Position numbers and translations under genes: made by a program. From Dryococelus australis (taxonomy: Eukaryota > Arthropoda > Insecta > Phasmatodea > Phasmatidae): a stretch of 64,000 nt of DNA. The notes under the pieces are model-generated. The model was not told where the DNA came from, did not search any database, and was given only the letters and a program-made list of their open reading frames with translations. The DNA lies in contig CM056995.1 of NCBI GenBank assembly GCA_029891345.1, positions 82,089,895 to 82,153,894 on the forward strand. Reading direction: 5' to 3'. Positions within the stretch are counted from its first letter, which is position 1; each line of letters opens with the position of its first letter. Positions 25,341 to 47,894 of this stretch are shown here, one piece after another.

Positions 25341-27610
25341 TTAAAGCTTTTAACATCGCTAGACTTTTTCCTTTGGTATGAAGATAGATTTATTTTCTAT
25401 TTTCTTTAAACAAAACACGCTCAAAGAATTTGTATTTGATCTAAATAATGTAGTATTACAATTAACAAAAACATATAAAGAAACATTCTAATAACAGGAA
25501 ACCTCTATGTATCTGTAATACTCTCTTTGAACTAAACCTATATTGTATTACTGAAAATCAAACATCTCCAAGAAATGTTTTTTCCTTTCTATACAGAAAT
25601 CGTTGTATGAATTTTTATAATACATTATTTTCATACTACTAGTTTATTGACAGGACGATTATGGAAATTAGTCTCAATGGTAATAAATTCAATGATATTC
25701 AGATATTTGTGAAGAAAATTTTAGTAAATTTCTCAGCATCGACAGCGTGCAATTGTAGGAAATTTTATAGTGCCATACATGGGGCAAGTAGGTCCAAATA
25801 TCACAGTTAATTAAATTCATCTATAATTATTGGGAATTTAGATACTTTAATTTAAAGCCATTAAAATAAACAAATTATTACAAACTGTGCTGTTCAAATG
25901 CCACCAAGTCAAATCTGCCCATGTGTGCCTATACTTAATTACATTCATAACAGCAGTTAGAAAGTCTCTTAAATTATGAACGAATATTAATTCGGAATAC
26001 AATAGTGTGTGGGTAAAAAATAAAACTGATTATTGAATATTATTTGATTATATGTTGCCTTCACGATTAAGCAATATTCTGGAGTAGTTATATTAGTGTA
26101 TCGAAGCCCACCAATTTTAATATCTTTCACAGTACTGTACATAACTTCTTCTTCTTCTTCACCTAAATCGTTCAAAGACACTTTGCCTTGGGCTTAAGAG
26201 TCGGAGGGACTCAGTTGGTCTTATATGTCACCAATGTTAACTTGCGCCATAAATTACAAGAAAACTATACATTTTTCCGAGGTGGCATTTGTTCTGCATG
26301 AAAAAGAAAAATGAAATCATTGTTACTGTTATTAAAAACAGCAAATTTTTCTTTATGAAAAACAAAATGTTACTGTTACAATATTTCACAAACTCGAATT
26401 TTGCACATACATATTATTTTCCTATGTAAACTGGTATGCTTGGCTAAAAACTAAGAAAAAAAATGCATACTTCCTCAGATAATTATACAACATATCAAAT
26501 ATTGCCTTCGCTGTATAAATAATATGATTACTTTTAAAATATATCGAAAAAAAACTTTTGTAAATGATTATATTTCAGAAATGAATTCATAGATAGACCT
26601 GTTTTGCACTGGGGCATTTGGCAGTTAGAAGGATTGAAGGATGATTAACGACCTTCTCGGACTATCCACTATCTCTTCGGAGCATCTGCACTCTCCACAG
26701 CTTGTCTGTTAGAAGCAGTGGATCGGCTCGAACATTCTACCTATGAAGCGAGAGTTGTATTTGCAGTTACTTTCGGGAAGTATTATCTCGATCATGGATA
26801 TTACTCTTTCGCGATAAAAAATGGGTAGGCACAGTACGAAAGGCAATGGAAAATGTTAGCAAATTAGTGCAAGACCAAGAAAAAGGAAAATGAAGCACTT
26901 AAAAGAACACAGCTGTAAAAAAAGGTAACTACTAATATTACGAACATAATATAGTTCATCTCATGTTATGTTCCCAGATTCTTACAGCTACTGCTGTCGA
27001 AATATTTGTTAATCACAACTGAATAACATGGCACTTGAAATAAGGAAACGGTTGCTGATTGCCATGTGAAGTAATTGTGGTATCCCTGAATCGAAAATCG
27101 TCTCTTTTTCATCAGCGGAAAACAAATGCCGCTTAGTGAAATTAATAAATTGCGAAAGAATTTTGGAATAAACTTCATGTTGTATGTATTTCGAAATAAT
27201 CTTTCACAGCATCGTATTATTTACAGATTTACTCCATTCTATATAAAATTTATCATAAATTTAACTGTTTATCTTAATGTTGGTGCAGTGAAAACGAACA
27301 GCCAGCCATGTTGCTTCTGTCAGGTATAATTTTTCGTGTGCGCGTGCTTTATTTAATTCCCTGTCAGATGTGAAAAGATTTAAAATTTTGTGCGTATTTT
27401 TATTACAATGCTGTGACCAGAAAACACTAAATGAAATAATAATCTGTATAACTTTATTTGGAACACATTGAAATACTCGGTCAATGTCGCTTCCGCCCTA
27501 CATAGACACATAGTCACATTTAATGTTTCGTTTATTTGCAAATTTTTATACAGTACTTTACATTCATGAGATTCCACCAGCGATATGGCAAAATGTGGAA
27601 CCTGTAAGTG
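25341..27610. other. No recognised feature; AT-rich
   Basis: No coding motif, SINE promoter or matched repeat recognised. Only short chance open frames occur. Confidence 0.45.
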
Positions 27611-27616
27611 TGTGTG

Positions 27617-27666
<50 letters not shown>
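27611..27666. repeat. Compound (GT)n(GA)n microsatellite
   Basis: An imperfect GT tract runs directly into about 14 GA units. Confidence 0.95.
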
Positions 27667-27669
<3 letters not shown>

Positions 27670-27886
27670 TAACACTGCATGTGCATCAACTTTTTAATTA
27701 ATGCTGTTATATAAATAGACGCATTACTACTTTGAATAATTTACGAATAATTCGACAATTACATACTATTAATTTTTCTATAAACAATTTTATTTTAAAT
27801 CAATCAAATCTTGCGAATTGAACCGTTACCACCGTGACAAGAAGGCGTGACAACCTCTTCTTACCAAGCCAGTGACGTCACGGCTA

Positions 27887-27977
27887 GGGGGCCATAGACA
27901 TAGGTACCTGTTTGCTAGTTTACTGGTGTTTATGTACAATATGGCCATAAACATAGCTACCTGTTTGCTAGTTTACA
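27887..27977 (+). repeat. Imperfect direct duplication
   Basis: A 36-base segment, GGCCATAGACATAGGTACCT followed by GTTTGCTAGTTTAC, is repeated 53 bases downstream with two differences. The two copies are separated by a spacer containing TGGTGTTTATGTACAATAT. Its function is unknown. Confidence 0.85.
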
Positions 27978-29300
27978 GCGTAGAGTGTATCTACGGTGTA
28001 CATCGGCATGTGATATGTTGTGCTTTGTTTGTAAGCGTTCAGTATAAGTGGAATTCTCTACGGTGTGCAAGCTTACGATCCTCAGCACAGAATAAAAAAT
28101 TAATGTAATGTATATTCTATGTCCTCAGTGTCTTGAAAAGTATCCGAACGGGCCGTAAGTTTACGGTTTTAAATTTCCTAACGATTAAGAAAAAAAACAA
28201 ATAATTTGTAGAGGAAAACAATCCCGTCCCTCTAGGAAGTGTCAAGAGTATGTTGATATTTATCAACTTAACATACAGTATAAATAGTTCTGTATAAAAT
28301 ATAACTTCTGTGTAAGAATCTAGTTCAGTACTACCAAACATTTGCAATAAAATACTTTATTCTGAAGAACTATAAAATCAAGTTTAAATGTTCAGTTAAT
28401 CCATTGCCTTACTATTTAAAATATCGTGTACCATACGTCTGAGATAAATTCATGTGAGTAGGGGCATGTTTTCTTACACAAGATTTCATAAGTCGACTTA
28501 TTTTTAATTTTTTCACCTAAACATTAATATTGAAAGGGTAAAATTTAAGCAAATTACGTAAATCCTCTTGTTATTTTTAATGACGACATTAAAATTAAAA
28601 ATTAAACAATGTGTTACGATACAGCAAAAAAAAGTTGGCATAATCAGTTATATGTGCGTTTTATGCTTTTTTGGAAAAAAAATAGTTTGCAAGATTATAT
28701 AAATATAATCCATTTTGGCTTAGTGCGACTATATAAAACTACTTTTTTGAGACAATGTATTTTAGGAAATAGATGTTAGCTGATTTTATTTCACGTTATA
28801 ATGTACCAATGTGTTTTCAAACATTTTCAACTTTTCGACATTGATCAGGAGAATAATTGTTCGTCTTCAATGGCAAAGTGTCCATATATCCTCCTACACT
28901 AATTTCCGTCTTCCTCTTGCTTACAACCTTGGCAATAGAGCACAATGAAATAAAGCCTTTTAAAACTTTCAAGAACACAAGGACTAATTGTAAAATAATG
29001 TTACAATTTATCTCTCTATAAATTAAGAGGGTATACCAAGTTCGTTAAGGGATGACGGTCTTAATCAAATAAAATAATTAATTATAATTTACTTATTTAA
29101 TTTACACTAACTACAGTAAAATTCTCTGAACTCAAATTCTCACAATAAATTGAAATCACTTACTGTTCACAATTGACACCAATTAATACAATTCCTAATT
29201 ACGATAAATAAATCAATGAAATTAAATAATTAAAGATCAGTCCCAATAGACAGTGTATCAGCCTATTCAATTATTTTATAATTTATGCGTCCATATTTGG
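27978..29300. other. No recognised feature
   Basis: AT-rich DNA without recognised coding motifs or repeats. Confidence 0.45.
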
Positions 29301-29880
29301 CAGTTTGAATATTTACAATAAAATTAGTATTACACTTCCATTCAGTCCCACCTCAGTTCAGTCCATGTCCAGCCAGTCGCAATGTTCTAGAGTCCTCCAA
29401 GCGCCCTCACGCACAGTAGGTTTCGCACTTCGATTTCATACCCTCTCGTTCATTCGAGCCACGAACACCTCACTCGCCGTCGTCCCGCAATCTCCAGTCG
29501 TCGTCCACACTCCACTTCGCTCGCGCACACTCGTCTAGAAGGCCTCTACAAAGATTGCCGGCCGCTTGGTTGCGGCAGTATATATAGTGTCTTAGGCCGC
29601 CTCCTAGAATCTTCCCTAACTCGCGTGATGTGTCGCGTAGGGCTGAGGCTCCAGCCAGTCTCACCAGGACATCCTTGCGTCAACGCCAAACGTATAGGAA
29701 ACTCTAGCAGGCGAGAGAAGTTCTGTGGCGCCAGCAAGTCCCGCCGCTGTTGGCATTCACGGGGTAACTCCCGCGGGGGGGGGGGGGGGTCAGGAGGCCG
29801 CGGTATCGTTCCAAGAAGAGGGGAGGGCGAGGTGGATCTCCAATTACGGCGCGGGGCAGCTGAGTCGCCGCCAGCTGCAG
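29301..29880 (-). promoter_or_regulatory. GC-rich minus-strand promoter or solo-LTR candidate
   Basis: The minus strand shows a TATATATA box at 29,579-29,586. Downstream comes a GC-rich leader rich in GAGCGAAG/GACGACG-type words, then an abrupt change to AT-rich DNA with AATAAA-type signals below about 29,330. This is the layout of an LTR (U3-R-U5) or of a promoter with a 5' UTR. A 15-base G run at 29,777-29,791 lies upstream. I could not identify TG...CA ends with a target duplication, nor any protein, so both options stay open. Confidence 0.3.
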
Positions 29881-30678
29881 CAAGTAACAATAATTTACCC
29901 TATGTATAGTGTTTCCATTTAAATTTAATGGTGAGAGGGAGTGTTTTTTCAAAAACAATGTGTATGAGGTATCTGTGTATTGAAATTATTCCTTTTAGTG
30001 TAGTTATACATTTATTAGGCATTTACTTAGCACAGTCTGATGACCAAGCATTTTTGTAGAAATTTGTGAATTTTGGAAACGTCAACACATTTTAGAATTT
30101 TGACGAAAACTTGTATACATAAAATGTTAACCAACGACGTGTGTATATATTATATATGTAGGTATATTTAAATGTATATGTATAAATGTGTGTCATTACT
30201 GCCAGCACCTGTATTTCTATTAATCTATAGCTACGTACCTATGGACTTAATTTATATTAAATAAAACATAATTAAAATACGGCAGTTCACGAAATATTAG
30301 CCGCAGTTTAATAGGCTAAACGGGAAGTTTCAGCCATTATGTGCCGTTAAAATCAAACAACTTTTATTACTAGAAAAAAATGCAAATACTGTTTTCTTTT
30401 AAAAGTAGGCACTCATTGCTCGAATAAATACATTCCTAAAATTTCAAACAATTTTTTTAATGAATTTAGAAGTGATCGTAGATGTTCTTCTTTGGATGGA
30501 AATTGTTGTTTTATGTGAGAGAACGTTACTGGGAGCAGTTTATGAACAAATGCAAAATGCTTTCAATGGGCCATACAGTTAGAGCTACAAATATTGTTGT
30601 GCTATTTAAATTATGTATGAAGCATACTGCTTCCTATTGCACGTTTCTATTCACCTGCACGGTACGTCGTATTCCATG
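29881..30678. other. No recognised feature
   Basis: AT-rich DNA. The plus-strand frame at 30,482-30,709 has no recognised domain. Confidence 0.4.
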
Positions 30679-30717
30679 GAAGACTACGCTCGCGCGCCGT
30701 ATTTTGTAGTCTTCGAC
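30679..30717. repeat. Short hairpin upstream of the Mutator-like pseudogene
   Basis: GAAGACTAC and GTAGTCTTC form a perfect 9-base inverted repeat around a GC-rich loop. It is followed by TGACGTCA at 30,721-30,728, a CRE-like palindrome. It stands about 115 bases upstream of the first recognisable coding sequence of the Mutator-like element and could be part of its promoter or terminus. Confidence 0.4.
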
Positions 30718-30832
30718 CTGTGACGTCACACGGAGTTGTCAGGCTTTCTTGTCTCTGTGGTCTAGGTTGAACCATAGTAATATAACCTCTTATATAGCTC
30801 GGTTTATTATAATATTCATTTCTGAATTTCAG

Positions 30833-31558
30833 GACAAAGACAGAAGCGATTCAGAATGAAATATGTGAGGGTGACCATGCGCTAGACACCGTGTATAGTG
30901 TGTGCACGACAGCCGAAACAGACAATAACACATCTGAAGAAACTATCGTGTCACATAATATAAGTGTATCTAATAATGAAACATCAACTTAACAGAGTGA
31001 ACAATTAACTAGCACAATCTCCTATACTTTCCAGACACATGGGCGCCGAGCTGTCGATATTTCTCACTTTGTTAGCAGCCTTCAAGCACTTGACTCGCAT
31101 AGTCCAATAGGTTATGGTTTTCGAGATATGAGCTTTGTGTGTGAGAAGATATACGGACTGAGGAGCTGCTTTATTTTTAAATGCAAAATGTGCAATGTAG
31201 AACTTCCTGTAAATAACGAAAAATAAAGTCAAGAAATGGATATGAACAGGGGCGCAGTGTGCGGGACAATGTCTACTGGTGGAGGACATACACAACTTGA
31301 AGAGAGATGTCGGCTATGAATATACCAACTATGTCGGTCAAGACATTTCTTAGATATCATGACGATGTGTGTAATGGGTGGGAAGCTACTGTTCTCAATG
31401 AAATGAAGCTTGCCGCTGAAGAAGAAGCTCGTTTGGCTGTCGCTGCTGGTGATGTTGATAGAAACGGAGCACCAGTCATAACTGTCATCGCAGATGCAAG
31501 TTGGTCAAAACGTTCATGCAGAATTTCACTTGGCAATGAAAGAGTTCATGAAGGGTAG
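30833..31558 (+). pseudogene. Mutator-like transposase / YqaJ fusion, N-terminal half (broken)
   Basis: This encodes the N-terminal region and first half of the Mutator-like transposase domain found in many arthropod genomes in proteins that also carry a C-terminal YqaJ nuclease. Landmarks are GRRAVDISHF (about 31,040), FKCKMCNVE (about 31,180), STGGGHTQLEE (about 31,270), then the frame from 31,301 with KTFLRYHDDVCNGWE and DVDRNGAPVITVIADASWSK. Lesions are in-frame stops at 30,990-30,992 and 31,224-31,226 and a frameshift near 31,300. TTTCTGAATTTCAG just before 30,833 looks like a 3' splice site. Similarity is lost just after the KRSC residues near 31,520, and the protein resumes at 35,889. 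Family assignment is by motif recognition and was not searched. Confidence 0.75.
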
Positions 31559-31639
31559 TCGAGAAAAGCCGATGGGTGTTAGGAAACTAATCTGCCTGTT
31601 TTTATTTGTGGGTATTACGCGCGCGTGCGAGAGTGTGTG

Positions 31640-31735
31640 TTTGGATGGGTGGTTGGTCCTGTTGTTTTGATGCCTGACCTCGGAGGCAAAGGGTAACGGG
31701 TTCTATTCCTGACAGGGAATTTCTTTTTGTAATTG
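31640..31735 (+). repeat. tRNA-like SINE fragment
   Basis: A B-box-like GGGTTCTATTCCTGAC lies near 31,699-31,714. An upstream A-box-like region, GGTTGGTCCTGTTGTTTTGA, is weak. It is followed by a short non-tRNA tail. The call rests mainly on the B box. Confidence 0.4.
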
Positions 31736-32280
31736 GAAAATTTCCTTCCCTGGTTAATAACTGTGTGTTGTAATACACTTTTACCGCCATACCGCGGAAG
31801 GCACTGGCGAACGACAGCAGAATCTCCTTGCCGATAATATGTCCATTCCAAGGTGGCAACTTGTTATTAATCTGCCTTTCGCGCGCTTTGGAGAGAGAAT
31901 TGGTTGTGTATCCAGTCACCATTGCGTCCGCAATCTTGCTCAACACAGGTAACTTGATACGTTTTAGCCGCGACACAGAAACAATGAATTAAAGTATTAT
32001 GTGGCTACCAGAATTTTGCACGTGCATGCTCATATAGTACTGTATTACTATATATTATAGAACATTGAAGAAAGCAACCACTAAAATTAAAAAAATAACA
32101 CCAGTACTATTTTCTACCGCTATCGTAATGTGAGTTGGCTAGTCGGCCAGTGCCTTTGAGCTGGTCAATAGCGGCAATGTTTTTCTCAGTTACCTCCTTG
32201 GGATGGATACTGTTTAGTTGCCCGTGGCACGTATCAACGTTGTCTTCAATGTTCTTACCTGCCTTCGGGCAGTTAAAAAA

Positions 32281-32396
<116 letters not shown>

Positions 32397-33003
32397 TTTG
32401 CATATGCGAGCCCGTGCTGTGTGTGGTAAATGTGAAATTTTATATATAGAGTAAAACCCATTTTAATATTCTTGAAGATAACACTAATATTTCATGGTGC
32501 CACAATTTTTCCATAAAGGTTGATGTTTTCTTCTTGAATATAAAATTTAATAATCTCATTTACTGCATATAAGCATAACATCACAGTTTATCAAGTGTGT
32601 GACGAAATTCCTAACATTTCACTCTGTTTTGAATGTGAAGTGTGCACTTGAAAAATTATTTTGTGTCACATGAGTAACTATTTACACGTGGTAACAAGAA
32701 ACGAGACAAAGTCAATAACAATCACGTTTTTGCGAACACTTATATACAGATAACTAATTAATATTTAACACTCTTGTAGTTTTTCGTATTTTTCTAGCTT
32801 TTGTTCAGAAAATATTTTGAGCGAATTTAAGCTACAAAAGCCAAGTAAGTTCTTATTTGTACTGATACAGGATTAAATGAAAGTACTTTTTGGCTGAGTA
32901 CCTGCTGTGAATACACTATGCCAATTAATGCTCATGACGTTTTTCTGTATTTAATAATTTATCACCTTGAGAAATGTTATAACAGGTCTACTGCAGTAGG
33001 CTT

Positions 33004-33630
33004 CACTGTAAAAAAAATTGAGGTAAAATTCCCTTATGTGTAAGGGAAGCTAATTACCTCTACATGCAAGGTAAAATTACATGACAAGTTAAGTACTATT
33101 CCCCAATCGTACGGGAAAAGTACCTGACAAAAGTGGGGTAATCATCCCATACAAATAAGGGAATATTAACTATATTTTATAATAAAATTATAATAAAAAA
33201 TATCCTGGAGTATTTATACTGTTAACTTTTTATTACCTTCATCCTCAGGCGAATAGTAACCGAAACCTCAACTCTAAAATCCTAGACATTTGCTAATGGA
33301 TGGGCGCGAAGCATGGGCCTATATGGCAATAGGCCCATGCGCTATCCATTACACCATGACGACTACATGACACTATCAATTAATATTAGCGTGTTAAAGG
33401 ATTGTTTCATCAGCCCATCCCCCCATTTAGCTGCAAGAATGCTGAAGAGATGCAAGCGTCGTAAAGTAATTTTCCACTACCATGTATGGGATTTTCCACT
33501 ACCATGTACGTGAATTTTATACCAAAGTGCGGTAATTTTATCTTACCTGTAAGGGAAACTAAGTTTTCTCAACAAGTTTGCGAATATTACCTTACACTTG
33601 CCAGGTAATTTTCCCATTATTTGTACAGTG
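33004..33630. mobile_element. MITE-like element with CACTGTA ends
   Basis: The left end is CACTGTAAAAAAAATTGAGG and continues with GTAAAATTCCCTTA. The reverse complement of the right end is CACTGTACAAATAATGGGAA and continues with AATTACC. GTAAAATT/AATTTTAC and AAGGGAA/TTCCCTT words recur throughout. Inside are a 22-base tandem duplication (TTTTCCACTACCATGTA at 33,469 and 33,491) and a tRNA-like hairpin (33,294-33,351). No coding capacity and no clear target duplication. Confidence 0.6.
33294..33351 (-). repeat. Long hairpin, probably a tRNA-derived fragment
   Basis: GCATGGGCCTAT and ATAGGCCCATGC form a perfect 12-base stem around a 6-base loop. An outer stem TAATGGAT/ATCCATTA surrounds it. 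On the minus strand GGTGTAATGGATAGCGC looks like the 5' part of a tRNA (A box), but no B box follows, so this is a tRNA-like remnant. A small-RNA hairpin precursor is the alternative. Confidence 0.5.
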
Positions 33631-35888
33631 TTATACAGGCCTACCTGAGTGTATAATGCGTGGCTACAGACGTAAGAAGTAAATACGGATGAATTAACGG
33701 GGCTCATTGCATGAATACATGAAAACAATGGTAGTATAAATTGAAATACGTGAGTGTAAAAGTGAAGAATACATATATATGTGGTTTATTGCGTATTTAG
33801 CCGCACTGTGATGCCCATGCTAACTGCCAATTGTTTGATGATTATGTGAAATCAGAATTCCTAGGCGTCACAGTGCTTAAAAAAAATTATAGATTATTGT
33901 AATACCTTATCTTAGTGGATAAGGCACGATATATAATCACACAAATAGGCTATTTGGAAAATAAAACGAAATTGGTAGTATAGAAATCCTACAGAATTTA
34001 AGAAACGTACAGGCTAACTTGAACGGTGAAACATTTAGTAAAATTTACATTTTGAAAGACTTGAGGATGAACTTGTGTTTTTATGTCAGCGGACTACATT
34101 GCTAACCTAAAAGCTGCTGTAGCGCTGATGTAAACAAAAACGTCACACTTTATACTTAGTGCTTTTTTTTTTCTCGAGACAACACGTTATAGTTTAAAGT
34201 GTGTAGCCTACTGTGATTCAGAAATGACAAATTTAATTTAATTTTTCTTACCATATTGCTTTTCTGTTGTGCCTTTTATGTGACAATAATATCCAGGTAA
34301 CTGAACATTACAAGTAATAACCTTCCTTGTCATGCTGTTGTCCAGAATTTCGTTTACAGTTTCGCTAATTACTTGGAACTCTTTATTCTTGAATCTGTGT
34401 TTTAAGAGCATGGCAAAGTGAATGCCAAATTAAATCTTCGCAAATAATAATTATATTTTTTTAGAATAAAAATTGCCATTTTTTGTAAAATAATTGCTAG
34501 CAACATTTCACATTCCATGGCAAAATGCATCGAAACGTAATATTTTTTAGTGTGTGTTGCGCTTGATGCAGCTGAATATTCAAATTTACACTGTTATCTA
34601 TAATTTCAGACATAAAAACCCAGTAAATTTCTAGTCATTTATAATTTCTTGTGACTATGTAAATGTTTGATCCGTGAACGATTACGGACGTGACTGCTGA
34701 TCGGGAAACGTTTATTTTAAGACAATTTTGCGAATTGTTTTTAAAAACTAATTTTAAGTGCCGTCGTTTTTGTGCAGTAGGTATGTGATAGTTTTGGAAC
34801 ATACCTACAAATTTTTTATATCGCATATGTCCAGAAAATGATAGTGACTATGCATGCGAAAATTTTCAAAATCAATTTTACACAATTTTTCAGTATGACT
34901 AGATATAATGATTTATCGCGAAAGTCTTTCAGGTGAAGGAAGTCACCGAAAAATATGTTTTCATTTTAGACGAATCAAATAGGTTGAGTGTCAGGGAAGC
35001 AAAAGCCTCGTTGGGCAAGCCAGAAAAAAAGGAAACTATTTCTCGCGCGTACTGTAGCCAGTAAGGAAAGAAATGTCGCAGGCATGCGTATAGGACGGTG
35101 AGATCTATCATGATGTCCGACATTTTCGCGATAAATTACCATCTCTAGAATGGCGTAACTGTGGTTAGATCCCGCCTGTAGTTCATGCAACATTGTCGAA
35201 AAGAATTTACATCGAAGAAAAATATGCGTAACTTTCTGGCGTACGGTTTTGTATCCAAAGGTTTGCCATTGGCGAGTAGACAAAATGAAAGTTGAAATGT
35301 ACTCATAATTCAATCATTTGGGAGACATCTTGCATAAGTAATTTTTTATAAAATGTATTTGTGTGTCTGAATAACTGCCAGTATTAACGAAATTCAGTAA
35401 TTTAATTTTTAAGTGGATTTTCGTACCAAACTGATTACAAAATCATTGTTGAAACACGGTCAAAAATAGTTAATTAACACGTTATTATTAATTACAACTA
35501 ATACAATGAACTCTAATCTTAGCGCAAGTGTTAACTAAATTGATAAAGCCTCAACAAGAGTAACTATATTTGCAGCTTCCAGCCAAAAACTTTGCGCAAA
35601 TGGATTTTATGTTTGGAACGCAAACCGAAGTTATCGGTTGTAAACTCTCATTACTTCGACAGTTTCACACGATATGAGGGTACAATATGATACAGAAAAA
35701 CATTTCTATAAATTTACTGCATTATCATAAGCGCAAAACAATGTTATTAACCTTAATGTTTTCACTGATGAATATACATGGTTTTATTAGCATAACTTAA
35801 AATAATATATGCAAATATGAATTAAATTTTTACTTGCCTAATCAATGTTATTACTTTCTCGCTCACAAATACTTGTTCATATGGTTTT

Positions 35889-36971
35889 ACAGGCTGCGAT
35901 AGTAGGATTCTGAACTGAAAAAAGTACTTTTTTCGGCGTAAAAAACAAGTACCGTAAACCTGTTGCCGTGCTGCAGCATTAGGAAAAACTCCGAAGCCGC
36001 ACACATGCTTCAAGAACTGGGAGGAAAACCAAAGTTCATCAAGTATGGACGCCGCGCTAATTGTTGAAGGTTTCCGCCAGAGTGAAAAAATGTATGGTAT
36101 AAAATATACTAAACTAATTGCGGATGGCGACAGTAATGTGTACAAAAGAGTTTTGGACACGCATCCTTACGAAAATGTTACCGTCGAAAAAATTGAGTGC
36201 ACAAATCATCATCTGCGTAATTTCTGTAATAAATTCAAGGACAGTGCAACTACAAGATATAAACAGATTGATGACATTGTCACGAGAAAGAAACTTGGTG
36301 ACAATATTCTTCGATTCAGAACAGCTGTTGTCAAAGCTGTAGAACACAGGCGGCAAGAAGAACGGTCACTGCATGAAAAAGTTGACGAATTACGGAAAGA
36401 CATCTTGAACAGTACAGGCCATATAGTTGGCGATCATTCCCTCTGCTCGGGTAGAGTCTACTCTCGTAAGTCAGATGGTAGTGATAGTAATTATGTGCCA
36501 GAGCTCATTAAAAGTGGTCTGAGTGATAAGATATCTGGTGTAGTAAGACAGATGAGCAACCACAGCAGTAGTTTAACCTACAAGGTGTGCAACAACCATG
36601 CAGAACACTACAATTCGGCAGTAGCTAAATTTGTTGGTGGAAAGAGAATTAATTTTTCCACTAGACGATCTTACACTGGCAGATGCACAGGAGCAGTTGT
36701 AAAATACAATACGGGGATGTCACTGTATACGTTACATAAAACAATGTACAAAAAATGCCCGGGAAAATTATGTAAAAGTCTGGAATACAGACGCAGAACT
36801 AAAGTTGTAGCAAATAAGGCCAAAATAAAGGCAACAGTGAAGAGTGTCGTAAGCCGTTACTCCGCCGGCCGCTTTCAGATAACTTATATGGCACCAATGC
36901 AGAAAAACCGGATATGGATCCAGAGACTTGCAATAGAGAATGCAGAGAATTTCTTGACTCCTTGCAAATGA
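35889..36971 (+). pseudogene. Mutator-like transposase / YqaJ fusion, central part (broken)
   Basis: Family similarity resumes at AAIVGF (35,889), continues through KVLF and GVKNKY in shifted frames, then CCRAAALGKTPKPHTCFKNW (about 35,975-36,035), and joins the 308-codon frame beginning MDAALIVEGFRQSE (36,045). That frame has the conserved KLIADGDSNVY, ECTNHHLRN and NNHAEHYNSAVAKFVGGKR blocks of the Mutator-like domain. The ATG at 36,045 is internal, since homology runs upstream past it. Lesions are frameshifts near 35,905, 35,945 and 35,965. The frame ends at a stop at 36,969-36,971 before the YqaJ region. Confidence 0.85.
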
Positions 36972-37672
36972 CAAAGTGAGAAACAGAGAGTCGAAAGGGC
37001 AATCGTAATGCAAAGAGAAAGTGGGGAGTGGGTAGAGAGAAGACTAAAAATACTTACAGCATCACATTTCGGACGATAATGTAACATGAAGCCATACACA
37101 GTTGTGAATCTACACTAAAGAGTATATTATGCAGCAGAATCGATACCAAAGCAATGAAATATGGAATGTATAACGAAAAAATTTGCAAAGGAAGCGATGG
37201 AGCAAGAACTAAATTTAACAATTTTTGAATTTGGACTTTTTATTGATCCGGAGATTCCTTACTTCGGTGCCACCCCAGACGAGGTTGTAGGAGACGACGG
37301 AATTGTAGAAATTAATTGCCTATCGTCCGCTTCACGTATGACAACCAAAGAGGCAATACAGAAAAAGAAAATCATGGCATGGAATACTGATAAGTCAGGA
37401 AAAATCTTAAGCTTGAAAAGAAAAATCATGGTTTTCACCTACAAGTGCAAGGGTAATTACATGTTACTCGCAGAAAATATTGACTGTTCGGCCTCTGGAC
37501 ACAACTAGGAATAATAATTGAAAGAATAGAAGGAAATGATGAATTCTGGAACAAAAAATGATTCCAAAATTGGAAATTTTTTATAAAAACTGCCTACTTC
37601 TGGATTCCATTGATCCAAGGGTCACATGGTCAATGCCTATAGGAAACCCTGCATATATTACTGACAATCAGA
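36972..37672 (+). pseudogene. YqaJ-type nuclease domain of the Mutator-like fusion (broken)
   Basis: Downstream frames encode QRESGEWVERRLKILTASHFGR (about 37,010-37,076), then a stop (37,077-37,079). The frame at 37,161-37,508 has FGLFIDPEIPYFGATPDE and DDGIVEINC, and after more shifts ERIEGNDEFW and SMPIGNPAYI (to about 37,672). In the PD-(D/E)XK fold of YqaJ nucleases the E-x-K motif normally reads EIKC; here it is EINC, so the catalytic lysine is lost. With several stops and frameshifts this is a dead copy. Confidence 0.8.
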
Positions 37673-38264
37673 GAAAGAGTAGAACAATTAAGTAAGTTTC
37701 AAGAAGCTACATAGGAAGAATTTAATGTATTTCCAGATTGTAAAATGGAGTCACGATTTGTTTTCTTCAAGCATTGGAATAATGTCAAAATATTTTTACA
37801 GTTATGTATTGTGATAATTGTTCATATTATGCATTGTGATCTATGCATATTAATAATTTACATTACACATTAATTATTTTTAAAAAATGCGTGTTATGTT
37901 AATATTCAAATTGCATTTTCTAATGATTATTATATTATTTCAAATTTAAATTGTAATTTGTCTCTTATAAATGGAAGAATGTGCCACAAAAAATTAATCA
38001 GTCTTATATCCCAAATGTTATGCTTAATTCGTTTGTTGTTTCAGTATTGCTGATGTGATAGTTAATTCCTGAAAGAAAAAGTAGCTGAGTATTGCAAAAG
38101 TGATTGATACAAAAGTAAAATAATTTCGTTGAGAAGAATGGCCTTTTATCATGCATTATACCCATTATATGCATAGATGTTTTAGAATGTGAAAATATTT
38201 ATAATGTGAGATTTTGAACAACTTGTGTTAGCAAAGTTGGGATTTAAAAATTTTGGCCTATTAA
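37673..38264. other. AT-rich spacer, probably 3' flank of the Mutator-like copy
   Basis: No coding motif is recognised. The right terminus of the Mutator-like element should lie here or be lost, but I could not see an inverted partner for the left flank. Confidence 0.4.
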
Positions 38265-38776
38265 AAACCAATCTCCGCCACTGCTGGTCCCAAGCCTGGA
38301 GCCTCATCTTGCAAGTAATGAGGAAGTAGGCGGGGGAGGAGTAACACCTCGTAAAAAACCTGGGTCCATCTGGCTCCAGATGGAAGCAGTCTATAAGGGC
38401 CCCTGCCTAGGGTTACAGGTGAAACCCGGTCAACTGTCTCAAAGGCGGAAAGGAATGTCAGATTCCCAATGGCAGAGAGAGCGGAAGAGCCTAGTGGAGT
38501 AAACCACGAATAAAAATCAAAATTTCGGACTAACAATCCGATCTTATCTTGGAATTTATTTCTTATCCTGTACAATGTACAATTTCAGTTGCAGAATGGA
38601 AAGTCCACTGAAAGAAAGCACTACCCCAGGTGGTAACTCGGAAGAGGAATCCACCATTGCATTATGCAATGCATCGGGACTTAGGCTTCTGGGGAGTCCC
38701 AACATCTGCACTAAGGATGAGTCGAAGCATCCTTGGTATCCTTCCAAACTCAAGTTCTAGAATAAATTCTTTGCAG

Positions 38777-39560
38777 GTAATTTGAATGTAAATTCCTTAC
38801 TACAAACTGGTAAATAGAAATAACTTGAAATTATCTTAGATAAACATGAACTACAAATCCTAGCAGTACAAGAAACAAGATTTTTGGATGAAAATGTTAC
38901 ACACACCAAAACCCATATAATATTTAAGGGTAGACCAGCAATGACAATTATGAAAGGAATGCCACTACTTGGTACTGCCTTTTATGTTCATAAAAATGTA
39001 GTAGATAATGTAACAGAATTCAAACCTAGTTCAGAAAGAATATCTCTTCTCGCAATTAAATGCAAAAATAAACAGTATACCTTTGTTAATTGTCATGCAC
39101 CAATAAACGAAGACAACAAGAAAAATCCGAGTAAAGTAGAAGAATTCCGGGAACTTCTGGAAGAGGAAATATCCAAAATCTCAAAATTAATTGTGATACT
39201 ACGGGGGGATTTTAATGCACAAATAGGGAGAGAAAAATATTTTTGAAAAACATTAGGTGACTATCCAGTCTATAAAAGAACAAACAAATAGGTATGAGGC
39301 TAATTAATCTCCGTAAAATATTTCAATTGAAATTAATGTCGACTTTCTTCAGGAAATTACCAAGAAGAGCTAAAACATGGATATCTCATTATCCAATGTT
39401 AGGGGAGTTCCAGTTGAATCATATGGCTGTTTCTCAAAGAAATATTAAAGAAATTATTAATGTAAAAGTAATAAATAGATAATTTTACTCTGATCACTAC
39501 CTCTCTAACATTAAGCTCAACCTTCTCCCTCATAAAAATAAAAAAAGACAAAAATTAATT
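38777..39560 (+). pseudogene. LINE endonuclease domain (broken)
   Basis: Starts with a frame reading VNSLLQTGK, then stops at 38,815-38,817 and 38,821-38,823, then DKHELQILAVQETRFLDE, the AP-endonuclease N-terminal motif with its catalytic glutamate. GDFNAQIG follows at 39,205-39,228 (DxN motif), a stop at 39,244-39,246, LGEFQLNHMAVSQRN in another frame, and YSDHYLS near 39,490 (the catalytic SDH motif). All three catalytic landmarks are present but in different frames. Confidence 0.85.
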
Positions 39561-39659
39561 AAATACAACATAGAAAGACTCAACAGCACACAGGAAACAA
39601 TAAAATATTTTCAGGAAGAAATTTAAATAAATAAATCAGATAAATGGCATGAATTAACC

Positions 39660-40983
39660 AAAGAAATAAACAGTGCAGTAAAGAAGTTATTCGGGTCTGC
39701 GAAAATGAAAAAGAAAGTCTGGTGGAATGAAACTTGTGAAGAAATGTTAACAGAAAGAACAAAACTATGGAAAAAATGGAAATGCTCTGGAAAGAATGAA
39801 CACTTTGGTCAAATTAAGCAACAAAGAAAAGAAACAGCAAGAATAATAAAGGGTGTTACACGATCCTTCTTTAAAAGTCATGACTTTTTAACATACAAAA
39901 TAACTTTGTTAAAAATAACTCTCAGAATTTCTATCAGTTGTTTAAAAATAACCTAAGAGGCTATCAAGCGCTAGGTATTTGCTTCAGAGATGAAAGTGGT
40001 AAATTGGGTTTAACCAATACCGAGAATTGTACAATCCTAAGGAAGTACTTTGATCAACTTCTGAACTGTGAAGAACCAATCTACAGGTTAGAATTACCAG
40101 ATATCCATGAAAACTTAGAAACAGATCCACCACCTACTGTTGAAGAAATTGAAAAAAGCACCCCTAAAAAACAACAAAGCCAGTAGAGAAGACTCCATTA
40201 CAGCTGAACTAAAAAATGGTCTCAACCAAAAATCATCGATAAACATCAAATCATCTTTGAAGAAATCTGGAATACGGAAAAGATCCCGGAAGAATGGAAT
40301 GTGGCTCTTATACATTCTTTGCATAATAAAGGTAACAAGCAAGATGCCAATAACTATAGAGGTATATCCCTTTTGCCAGTGGCTTATAAGATATTCTCAA
40401 AAATATTACTAAACAGGGTAGAAGCAACACTTGACAGTCATTTGGGGAATATCAGAGTAGATTTAGAAAGGGCAGATCTGGCTCAGAACAGTCCGTCACA
40501 GACTCACGGACTTCAAAAACACAGCAGTAACATTTATAGATTTTAAAAAAGGCTTTTGATTCCATTGATAGAGAAACTGTATATAAAGTGATCCGAGAAT
40601 TTGGAGTTAAATCTAAATTAACAAATTTAATCCGTGAAACCCTCATAGACACTATATCAAAAGTAAAATTTCAGGGCGAAATATCTAAACCATTAAATAT
40701 AAATACAGGTGTATGGCAAGGTTATGGTTTGTCTCCACTACTCTTCAACTGCATCTTGGAGAAAATAGTAAGAATTTTGAATGAAAAACTAAAAGAACAC
40801 ACGCTATCACCAATAACACTGGGGAGAAAGAACAAGGTTGTTGAAATAAACTGTCTAACATTTGCAGACGATTTTGCCATACTTTCTGAAAACTTAACAA
40901 ACGCAGCAATACAAGTCAATCTCTTAGAAGAGATAGCCAACAAAACAGGTTTAAGAATTTCTGTAGGAAAACATAAATTATGA
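39660..40983 (+). pseudogene. LINE reverse transcriptase domain (broken)
   Basis: Frames in sequence show VWWNETCEEM (linker), KAPLKNNKASREDSITAEL (RT-0/1), ALIHSLHNKGNKQDANNYRGISLLPVAYKIFSKILLNR (RT-1/2, 40,301-40,425), a fragment around KAFDSIDRETVYK, TGVWQGYGLSPLLFN (RT-4), and TFADDFAILSE with the catalytic FADD at 40,861-40,872. A stop lies at 40,981-40,983. At least four frameshifts are needed to join the motifs. Confidence 0.9.
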
Positions 40984-41717
40984 CAAAATATAAAAATTGC
41001 TCCAGAAGTCCTTGCAACATATATTGGTCAGATAAAGAGAGTAAAAAGGTGCAAATATCTGGGGGAAATAATTCAGGAAAATGGTTTGGAAAAATTCGCG
41101 GTAGATGAAAGGATACGCAAGATGGACATAGCATATGGTATAACCAGGAATATATACAACAAAAAATGTTTATCTAAAAATATTAAAATACAGCACTACA
41201 TCACAGTTGTCAAACCGGAATGTCTTACGCAAGTGAATGACTAGTACTGAATTACAAGTTGCATAAATTAGAAGTACTAGAAAGAAGAATTATACGTAAA
41301 ATACTTGGTCCACTAAAAACTACAGAATTATGGAAATTAAGAAGTAATGATGAAATATATCGCAACATAGAAATCATAACAGAAACACTACGGAAGAGAC
41401 GATTGCTATTTTTTGAACATTTATATAGAATGGATGGCAACAGGTTAACCAAACGGATCTTCAAATATCTTTGGAACAAGAAATCAACAATAACCTGGAT
41501 TCAAGAAGTTAAGAAAAATTTGGAAAGAAACCATATAAGTGAAGAAAAAGTAACAGAGAGAGAAATTTTTAAGAAAAAAGTGTTAGAAATGGAAGGATTC
41601 CAAGGCAAGAAGGAAAAGAAAACAGGCTCGAAATGGTCCGAGGAGAGGAAAAAGATACATAGTGAGAAAGTGGAGGAGTGCTGGAGAAAGAAGGGACAAC
41701 AAAGGATGAAGCATTGA
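40984..41717 (+). pseudogene. LINE C-terminal region (broken)
   Basis: KRCKYLGEIIQENG (about 41,045) follows the reverse transcriptase. An open frame 41,259-41,714 then gives LEVLERRIIRKILGP, ETLRKRRLLFFEHLYRMD, LTKRIFKYLWNKK and a lysine/glutamate-rich tail ending in a WRKKGQQR-like segment. RRRL..F.HLYRM followed by LTKRIF is a recurring feature of insect endonuclease-reverse transcriptase proteins. This is the longest intact piece of the element. Confidence 0.8.
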
Positions 41718-41760
41718 AATTGGTTCGTGGTCCCTAGAAGACCCTAATGGAAAAATAAGA

Positions 41761-42555
41761 AGCAGGAGGTAAACCAAAAAAAGTTCAAGCTTTTCCTTAC
41801 TAAGTAAAACGTGACTACTAAAATTATTGCATTTGATTTTTTCCAATGTTCCTCTATCCCTCTCCCAAGCGCTTTATCAAAATGTAAAATAATGCGCGCT
41901 GTCACAAGTGTTTAACTGACCATTACAATGTTCCTAGATTTATTTATACAAGTACAAATTCAGCTCAAAAAAAGAAACACAATAAGTATTAAAACAAACA
42001 ATAACTACAAATTTATTTTAGACGTATATTGCATCATCTTTTTGAGACTTTTCATAATGAATATTGACTGTTTGTAAACCATTTATAAGGAAACTCCGTT
42101 TGGCGCACGTTCACAATTCGCTAAGTAATTTTTAACTGACATTCGCGTAACAAAACTACCCCACTCAAAGCGGGACCCAGGCGAGTTATTCATGCATGCT
42201 TAGTTACACGGGAACAGCCAGGATATTGGCCAAGAGAGAAGAGTTGATGTTTAAAGCGATAAGACGGCAGCTACCCTCCCACCCGCTGGTTTGACAGACA
42301 CTCATCCTCGATGGAGTGCATGCAAAATGGGCTTAGCAACAACCACGTACCTCACATCTTACAGCGAGAAAATCGCGTATTTTCGGCTAAATCCCTCCGA
42401 CTCTGAACCCGTACAGCAAGCAAAAATTCAAATTTCGAATACAAGAACGTCGGAAACGACGAATAACGTGGTTAAACACGGCAGCAAAACCCTCAATACT
42501 CGACAAAACCATAATTCCAAAACCCATTAAACTCAAAACCCATATATTTATGCCG
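41761..42555. other. No recognised gene
   Basis: LINE 3' flank followed by mixed-composition DNA. The short plus-strand frame at 42,291-42,530 has no domain. Confidence 0.4.
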
Positions 42556-42820
42556 AATAAAAGCGTTAGGTAACCATTTGTGATAACTTAAATTATTTAT
42601 TTCTTTTTTTGTTTTATTTATTAATATAAGTGAAAAAATTAGCCGATTTGTTAAATATTTATTTTTCTAATAATTTCGCAGTTTCACTTGACCGACGCAT
42701 GAGGAACGTTATGAGGCCCATGACAATTTTAACCTTATATAAGTCGGAAGAATACACAACGTGCATACAGGTAAATCTTAAGCAGGGCTTTCAAAAGTGC
42801 TCATATTACCGTGAATAGCC
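42556..42820 (+). mobile_element. TA-flanked MITE, GGCTGTTCAC family, copy 2 (5' truncated)
   Basis: Aligns with 18,054-18,321 from GAATAAA..GTTAGGTAAC onward, sharing TTTCACTTGACCGACGCATGA and GCAGGGCTTTCAAAAGTGCT. The right end, reverse-complemented, is GGCTATTCACGGTAATATGA followed by GCACTTTTGAAA, and TA follows it. The left third present in the other copies is missing, so the copy is truncated or the left part was replaced. Confidence 0.8.
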
Positions 42821-44689: not shown

Positions 44690-46292
44690 ACCACGTCAAG
44701 AATTCTGATGGTGTGTCACTCAACAACGAAGTTTGTATATGTAAGATGTTTAGTGCTTCTCCATGATCGAGTAGGTTCGTCATTCGTGCCCAGACAGAAC
44801 CTGAATCCGTCACATAGGATGATACATTGCCACACCTCGGCCGTTCATACCACTTGATAACATTATACATTATACAGTAGACCTCTCGGTCATTGTATTT
44901 TATATTTGATCGCAGTGCTCTTAGCTCGAAAGCCCTATCGCGCTTCGGCCTCCCAATAGGCGGAGAAGAGGAATCATGTCTTCTCACCGCAAGGAAACCA
45001 GGATTAATGCGACCGTTGGCCAGATCCTAAGCACAAACCTGGCACGTCCACACATCCTTGCCCCTTCTACCACAGGGGTTCTGAGACCCTCGCACTCAGA
45101 AACCAAGCGTGTGGTCTGGCCGGGGTTCTACCTATACCTCTAGCACCTCTCCAGGGCACAACCGGAGCAGGTTGCCGCTCACCGCCCGGTCTTTCCACGA
45201 GAGTGGGAATCTCTCCAGACAATCTCCAGCATACGGAGTTAACCACTACCAGCACGAGTCCAACCACAATGATCGGTCACCAGAGAGAACCTCCAGTGGA
45301 GCCAACCGATCGTCCCGTGCTACCACTTAATTTCCATGGCACTTGTGGGTTATTCATCACCGACTGCTCCGCCGATGGAGTGGCAGAGGAAATCCTTTCC
45401 ATGCAAAGTTGTTGAGAACACCTCCCCGGGCATCAGCCTTACACCCAATAAAGGGCTGGTCACACTCCACTCCCTAGGAGCCACATCCTACAAAGGCGGG
45501 GCCTTACGATGACTCAGAATGGCCACTACCCCGGGGGCCGAGCCACCAGGGAGCAGTCAGGGCCCCCTCCCCGGTGTCGCGGTTCACCTGAAATAGCAGT
45601 CCTTGCTCTGACATTGGAGAATTTTTATCATATATCGTCATTTAATCTCCAAAGTTTTTATCACTGCATCTGAGCCACTGCTCCCCTCGACCCCTGAGGG
45701 CCTTACGTGACCAATTCCCAGTTCGAGGGAGATACGTCGGCCACACTCCATTCCATGCCTTTGTACTTCTACACACATTGAAGTACTGATATTGGGCCCC
45801 AACGGCCTGGCTGCTAAGTGTTCTAACACCCCGCCAAGTGGTCGAGCCTAGGTACCATATACCGGGCCAACCATGACGGCAGATACCCATGGCCAGTCGC
45901 GAGGAAACTGGCAACCCATAGGGAACGAGCGGCGTAGCCCAATTTGCGGAATCAGGGGAGGCACGAGAAGCATTTGGTCGATTGAGTGGTAGAGAGGGTA
46001 TAAGAGATGCTTAATCCATCCTGGACGAGTCGTGTGCTGTGAAACTTGACTTAGCCAGTATAGCATGGACTGCCACACCACCTCGCATGCCAAGGACTTT
46101 CCTCCTAGGCCACTACACCCCACATGAATCCTGAAGAGTGCCTCACACTGGAGTCACACAACCCTACCCCCGCCACTCGATAACAGCAAAACTGCAAATG
46201 AAGTCGCGTTGTCGGAGTGCTAATGGAAGACGGCGCTAATTCTGCGGAGATCTTTCTGCAAGTTGACTCGCAGTACTGAGGTTGGAGTATGT
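44690..46292. other. Long GC-rich segment of unknown origin
   Basis: About 1.6 kb with base composition clearly richer in G and C than its surroundings, with sharp edges. Overlapping open frames occur on both strands (for example minus 44,688-44,987 and 45,848-46,123) but none contains a motif I recognise. It could be an old retroelement internal region or untranslated region, a transferred fragment, or exonic host DNA. No internal repeats, TIRs or LTRs were found. Confidence 0.35.
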
Positions 46293-47172: not shown

Positions 47173-47474
47173 TTGTCACTCGCCGTATGTTGTTACATGC
47201 CTAAGTGATGGAAAGACACTGTTGTTCGCACACGTCCGACGATGAAGCTGCAGGCAACACAGTACGATCGCTACTGTCCAGGTGGCGGTAAGTTAAAGAC
47301 TGGGCACCCTACCTCCCGCAGTCGTACCATTCACCCCTCTTTCAAACCATATATGTGTCGTATACGTCACCAAGGCATGCTAGCTGTTTACTGGCGTTTA
47401 CTACGCACACACGCAAACACACACCCATAGTGTTTTACTGCACATATTTTCGGCCTACAACCGTTCAAGTTATA
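47173..47474. other. No recognised feature
   Basis: Short intervening DNA with a CAC-rich patch near 47,405-47,428. The plus-strand frame at 47,242-47,430 shows no domain. Confidence 0.35.
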
Positions 47475-47894
47475 TGCTGTTCTCGGTAAAATTACCACTT
47501 TTGAAAGCCCTTATTTAGATCTACTTGTATACACATTGTGTATTCCTCTGCATTATGTAAATTTAACCTTGACGAGGGGCCTCATCACTTTATTCATGGG
47601 TCGGTCGAGTGAAACTGTGATATTATTAGAAAAGTAAATATGTTACAAAACTGCTCGTTTTTATTCTTCGATGCAATAAAAAATAACAGAAAGCGAAAGA
47701 AATACTTTAAGTTATCACAAATGACTACCTAACACTTTTTGTTCGACATTAAAATATGGAACTAATTTCCCTCCATCGTTATCAACTTTACTGGGCACAT
47801 GTCACTCAAGACGCCCGTTAAAATGTAAGCAGTTAGACACATTGACTTTATTCTAAGGTCGATTTCAAAATTTCTCACTTTATCATGAACAGCA
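47475..47894 (-). mobile_element. TA-flanked MITE, GGCTGTTCAC family, copy 3
   Basis: In reverse orientation this aligns end to end with 17,917-18,321. Ends on the two strands are TGCTGTTCTCGGTAAAATTA and TGCTGTTCATGATAAAGTGA, each continuing with CACTTTTGAAA or AATTTTGAAA. Internal GTTAGGTAGTCATTTGTGATA and TTTCACTCGACCGACCCATGA blocks match. TATA precedes the left end; the right flank TTTA has diverged. At 420 bp it is the longest copy. Confidence 0.85.

Follow-up and report, generated by a model that had tools for sequence, protein, structure and literature searches.

A decayed transposon of Dryococelus australis, very probably of the Kolobok superfamily, with a putative spliceosomal intron in its transposase–nuclease gene

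The locus and its features

The DNA analysed is a 64,000-nucleotide stretch of the Dryococelus australis genome (assembly GCA_029891345.1, contig CM056995.1, positions 82,089,895 to 82,153,894 of the forward strand; hereafter the window). It contains a transposon copy whose transposase and nuclease coding sequence lies in two pieces separated by 4.3 kb (Table 1). The hexamer TTTCAG, which resembles a splice acceptor, stands immediately before the upstream exon both here and in a sister copy (L026), and a perfect (TA)50 microsatellite occupies positions 32283–32382 of the intervening DNA. No other element gene was recognized among ten open reading frames (ORFs) of the flanks, the intron and the downstream insert, where the reverse transcriptase of the insert is the sole match above the Pfam cut-off.

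Table 1. Features of the transposon copy, in positions of the window.
Feature	Position	Strand	Evidence
Whole transposon copy, from terminal inverted repeat to terminal inverted repeat, with later insertions nested inside	26198..42403	+	left start in 34 and right end in 37 of 39 other scored places
Left terminal inverted repeat GAGTCGGAGGGACTCAG, with TTAA before it at 26,194–26,197	26198..26214	+	15 of 17 positions match the right end
Right terminal inverted repeat, followed by TGAA	42387..42403	-	TTAA at 14 of the 20 right ends fetched from sister copies
Upstream transposase exon (PF20700 positions 1–164), with stops and a frameshift	30833..31516	+	Pfam, translation
Scar of a 38-bp deletion (length counted by eye) between TACAG repeats; exon end and 5' splice site lost	31517..31521	+	alignment with 10 sister copies
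Putative intron without donor, with acceptor TTTTACAG; the 4.3 kb of intervening DNA	31517..35892	+	recurs in sister copies
Element of 627 bp inside the intron, with ends CACTGTA...TACAGTG	33004..33630	.	not covered by the other places scored
Downstream exon with the rest of the transposase (PF20700 positions 175–352) and the nuclease, frames broken	35893..37505	+	Pfam, tblastn, translation
YqaJ (lambda-exonuclease type) domain, limits approximate	37026..37358	+	Pfam, tblastn
Later insertion, non-LTR retrotransposon with AAACCAA flanks	38272..41770	+	absent from L021, L026 and L030; reverse transcriptase PF00078 (E = 3.9e-19)

Domain content of the two halves

Pfam profile searches assign the N-terminal piece to positions 1–164 of the 357 of PF20700 (E = 4.2e-33), the C-terminal piece to positions 175–352 of the same profile (E = 5.4e-42) and the piece behind it to positions 1–126 of the 150 of the YqaJ domain PF09588 (E = 6.8e-11). 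This bears out the order of transposase then nuclease that a first-pass annotation had read from the letters alone, as well as its view that the halves are collinear, with no protein segment overlapping or duplicated between them. A gap at the break is also real; it amounts to ten profile positions (165–174), where about seven residues had been estimated. A 25-residue stretch at the break has no Pfam match. When the three pieces were compared with the window by tblastn (E up to 0.01), they were located solely at 30,828–31,555 and 35,893–37,505, and the DNA between them gave no match to the transposase, as had been claimed.

The limits of the halves differ slightly from those first given. The upstream exon sequence ends at about 31,516, not 31,558: the last 42 coding bases of the earlier reading, i.e. 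the residues CRISLGNERVHEG (31,517–31,558), appear to be intron DNA read as protein, because the same stretch sits downstream of the donor in sister copies. The C-terminal half starts at 35,893 rather than 35,889, directly after the acceptor. Stops and frameshifts are present in both halves, and a motif of the nuclease reads EINC in the window vs EIKC in the sister copy L030 (EIK to EIN). Transposase and nuclease were probably encoded in a single ORF, whose frames are now broken in the window.

A transposase joined to such a nuclease had been regarded as unusual. The arrangement is in fact common in this genome: among 28 YqaJ copies fetched with their flanks, of 150 listed, 25 match the C-terminal transposase piece upstream of the nuclease (in L009, L016 and L028 the match is limited to the part beyond the Pfam domain), and three (L013, L014 and L015) have no such match. 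It is also in print for KolobokE elements (PMC9587614, in its available part).

A putative intron at a conserved position

Much of the intervening DNA is shared with related copies. Among the 40 of 6,116 candidates scored with the intron as query, it recurs whole or in part in all 39 other places; the main pieces are 85–90% identical and a few smaller ones 71–84%. The 5' part of the intron is also held by 15 of these places, and the remainder are without some or all of it. L026 aligns along the whole 9.5 kb fetched (window 27,258–41,953, with gaps), intervening DNA included, at 85–90% identity, and L021 and L030 align over parts. In ten close copies (nine fetched donors and L026) the intron DNA adjoins the end of the exon; the donor begins with GT in nine of them and is exactly GTAAGT in six. 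The acceptor, which is intact in the window, lies in the same place in L017, L025, L026, L030, L037–L042 and L044. The residues missing at the break in the window would be explained by the tabulated deletion, since it took the exon end and the donor. One segment stands apart: positions 33,004–33,630 are covered by no other scored place (one overlaps by 3 bases), while the stretches on either side abut in 21 places, which indicates an insert private to the window copy. The copy L021 is without the equivalent of window positions 27,598–33,799, upstream exon included. Matches at other places (C14:33747453 and C2:261509302) break off and restart at these points too, so that L021 may be an amplified deletion derivative.

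The break recurs at one position across the genome (3.4 Gb in 646 contigs). A scan with PF20700, in which 114 of 3,179 candidates were scored, listed 126 matches: 36 start at profile positions 174–177, 11 end at 176–178 and 64 run through 165–186. We read the break in 12 copies, i.e. eight with both sides close together and four from the YqaJ set (L017, L025, L026 and L034); some other same-copy pairs from the scan were not fetched, L031 was not read at the break, and L029, with no recognizable GT–AG junction there, was not counted. The intervening lengths are 69, 84, 93, 93, 93, 98, 99, 133, 306, 324, 1,653 and 3,633 bp. GT stands at the start in 11 of the 12 (GA in L026) and AG at the end in ten (L034 and L043 differ), always in phase 0, after G[V/T/A] and before [A/G]x[I/V]. 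By this position and these splice sites, the gap reads as a spliceosomal intron.

Five copies (L010, L012, L020, L023 and L035) have no gap at the break. In an unrooted tree of 23 copies and the window, restricted to copies with more than 250 aligned residues, intron-bearing copies (the window group with L034; L017 with L025) fall on both sides of the intronless L010, L012, L020 and L035; the placement of L023 has a support of only 0.27. This topology faintly suggests an old intron that was lost more than once.

The first-pass annotation was right that the halves belong to one gene rather than to two juxtaposed copies; its notion of a gene split by a later event does not hold, as the 4.3 kb, except for 627 bp, is the intron of sister copies. 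Collinear halves with about ten residues missing are what a 4.3-kb foreign insertion into one transposase gene would leave, and the window copy does carry other inserts, yet such an event is very improbable here: the same DNA adjoins the exon end in all ten close copies, in distant copies a short intron interrupts the gene at this very codon boundary, the private part amounts to 627 bp among the places scored, and the missing residues have their own explanation in the deletion. The shared intron refutes a foreign insertion for all but 33,004–33,630. Copies of this family are numerous, so that two different ones might lie in tandem by chance; the absence of overlapping or duplicated protein segments, and L026, in which order and intron sequence agree with the window throughout the 9.5 kb fetched, refute this and make its probability next to negligible.

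Ends, size and flanks of the element

A search for terminal inverted repeats within the window alone gave no clear ends, which were found with the aid of sister copies. On the left, matches start at window positions 26,191–26,198 in 34 of the 39 other places that were scored (for two, the start belongs to a second piece); on the right, they end at 42,402–42,408 in 37 of 39. These ends are inverted repeats of the form GAGTCGGAGGGA..., and the termini GA...TC have the 5'-RR and YY-3' pattern. TTAA flanks 31 of the 40 ends fetched, i.e. 17 of 20 on the left, where no end was located in L088, and 14 of 20 on the right. The next base outward is C at 13 of 19 left and 11 of 20 right ends. In six copies with paired ends, TTAA stands on both sides in four, ATAA and TTAA in one, and TTAA and TGAA in the window; no direct repeat longer than 5 bp occurs within 15 bp outside the TTAA. 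The TTAA is a putative target duplication; it would then not belong to the terminal repeat itself.

The window copy measures 16.2 kb, or 12.1 kb without the inserts at 33,004–33,630 and 38,272–41,770. Two further blocks (28,998–29,888 and 30,396–30,602) are absent from L026, the one copy comparable there, and without them too the length would be 11.0 kb. Five other copies with both ends are 11.5, 10.8, 8.5, 8.4 and 6.6 kb long, by the coordinates of their end matches.

Several repeats lie around the element. A 1.3-kb repeat at 44873–46171 has very many copies in the genome (39,013 candidates at first look; 39 other scored places match within it, at 82–89% identity), and it swamped the first query for the right end. 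Another repeat (window 42540–42800), just outside the right end, occurs again at 47,472–47,759 and, in inverted orientation, immediately beyond the right end of another copy (C1:312675820–312676083). L072 and L100, on contigs C2 and C17, share the flank TGGGTGGCTCTTAA, one at its left end and the other at its right end; these are perhaps two insertions, in opposite directions, into the same TTAA of a repeat.

Decay

Between the window, L021, L026 and L030, the two exon stretches differ by 7–13% and the intron by 9–11%. In the transposase stretch, first codon positions are the most changed in all six pairs (30/24/19 for the window vs L021); in the shorter nuclease stretch, where numbers are small, third positions are highest in four of the six pairs and tied highest in one. 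These close copies thus have no consistent excess of third-position changes, a pattern that we read, by inspection of the counts rather than a statistical test, as mostly neutral decay after a burst. The window copy is an ordinary fossil transposon.

Family assignment

We consider it very probable that the window copy is a dead transposon of the Kolobok superfamily, most likely of the KolobokE lineage, with a transposase–nuclease gene interrupted by a spliceosomal intron. KolobokE is favoured over Mutator because of the TTAA flanks, the GA...TC termini and the lambda-exonuclease-type nuclease behind the transposase. As described in the available part of PMC9587614, KolobokE elements have (i) a lambda-exonuclease-like PD-(D/E)xK nuclease downstream of the transposase, (ii) TTAA flanks, as a target duplication, (iii) RR...YY termini, (iv) a C/DxxH motif and (v) a CCHC zinc finger downstream of the first D; in almost all Kolobok, a zinc finger also lies between C/DxxH and the final E. 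The nuclease, the termini and the C/DxxH motif recur in the window copy, TTAA at most of the ends fetched (the right flank of the window copy, TGAA, counts against the assignment), and the CCHC pattern in other copies of this genome. In the window translation, the C/DxxH motif is represented by CTNH, the first residues of CTNHHLRNFCNKFKD; it lies between the second D and the E (both residues assigned by eye). The CCHC pattern, also recognized by eye, is seen as the CxxC in NKYCATC of the close copy L030 and in full, as CxxC...HxC, in L010 and L012, which are more distant; one cysteine is lost in the window. The long transposase intron is a difference, as that part of the source mentions no spliceosomal intron in KolobokE. 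The likeness is to the published description of the lineage.

Other known systems resemble the element in fewer respects. Kolobok of Xenopus (PMC6004289, in its available part) shares the TTAA flanks, the purine-start termini and the size (full-length elements of 6.8–13.9 kb). According to the same source, Kolobok transposases usually carry a THAP domain; here Pfam gave no THAP match in the pieces or in ten further ORFs, a point against Kolobok, although the first exon was likewise not located. The word THAP is not used in PMC9587614, nor the word YqaJ in PMC6004289. ISL2EU is likewise a DNA transposon with a YqaJ exonuclease, but its nuclease has an ORF of its own and its transposase belongs to the PIF/Harbinger type (PMC4482050, in its available part), whereas the downstream exon of the window has PF20700 followed by PF09588 and no Harbinger match in Pfam. 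For relatives in viral contigs, two stretches matched a pattern and neither was confirmed.

No match to PF10551, which we take to be the accession of the MULE transposase domain, was listed at E up to 10, with filters that drop most matches above 0.1. This is one of several observations that make a true Mutator-like element (MULE) with an acquired nuclease unlikely. MULEs have 8–11-bp target duplications (PMC6446971, in its available part), and none of the six paired copies has one; TTAA stands instead at most of the ends fetched. The words 'intron' and 'nuclease' are absent from the main text of two MULE papers (PMC6446971 and PMC13359780), and a nuclease domain is present here. What a MULE has in its favour is the missing THAP domain, the domain name and the C/DxxH motif, which, in the available part of PMC9587614, is common to MuDR and Kolobok. 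The label 'Mutator-like' in the first-pass annotation is Pfam's name for the domain and survives as such; the flanks, ends and nuclease point to Kolobok, and within it to KolobokE as described in PMC9587614.

Proposed history and implications

For this Kolobok element we propose the following history, which builds on the domains, the position of the intron and its recurrence in sister copies, the element ends and the TTAA flanks, all read from DNA sequence. The element, about 11–12 kb without its later inserts, carries a gene for a DDE transposase with a lambda-exonuclease-type nuclease behind it. In a working ancestor, the intron, which lies between ...SGV and AAIVGF..., would have been spliced out, and the resulting fused protein would have cut the element at its terminal repeats and inserted it at TTAA; the nuclease may have trimmed DNA ends in the course of excision or repair. 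Later the window copy lost 38 bp with the 5' splice site, accumulated stops and frameshifts, and gained the 627-bp element inside the intron and the retrotransposon downstream.

The intron could also have been a control device, as with the retained intron of the P element: from unspliced transcripts the only product would be a shortened half of the transposase that has neither the later catalytic residues nor the nuclease, and in the window subfamily the intron may have grown to about 3.6 kb with possible regulatory DNA inside. We regard such a role as quite improbable.

Two points may be new, namely that a long intron sits at a conserved position and that the element is reassigned to Kolobok: searches of open-licence PubMed Central turned up no article describing an intron in this lineage and none that treats PF20700 with YqaJ as Kolobok. 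An apparently broken gene is explained here as one with an intron. The analysis also suggests that proteins annotated by Pfam as 'Mutator-like transposase' with YqaJ can belong to Kolobok elements. With intron lengths from 69 bp to 3.6 kb at a single codon boundary, and no intron in other branches, the family lends itself to the study of how introns are lost or grow within a transposon.
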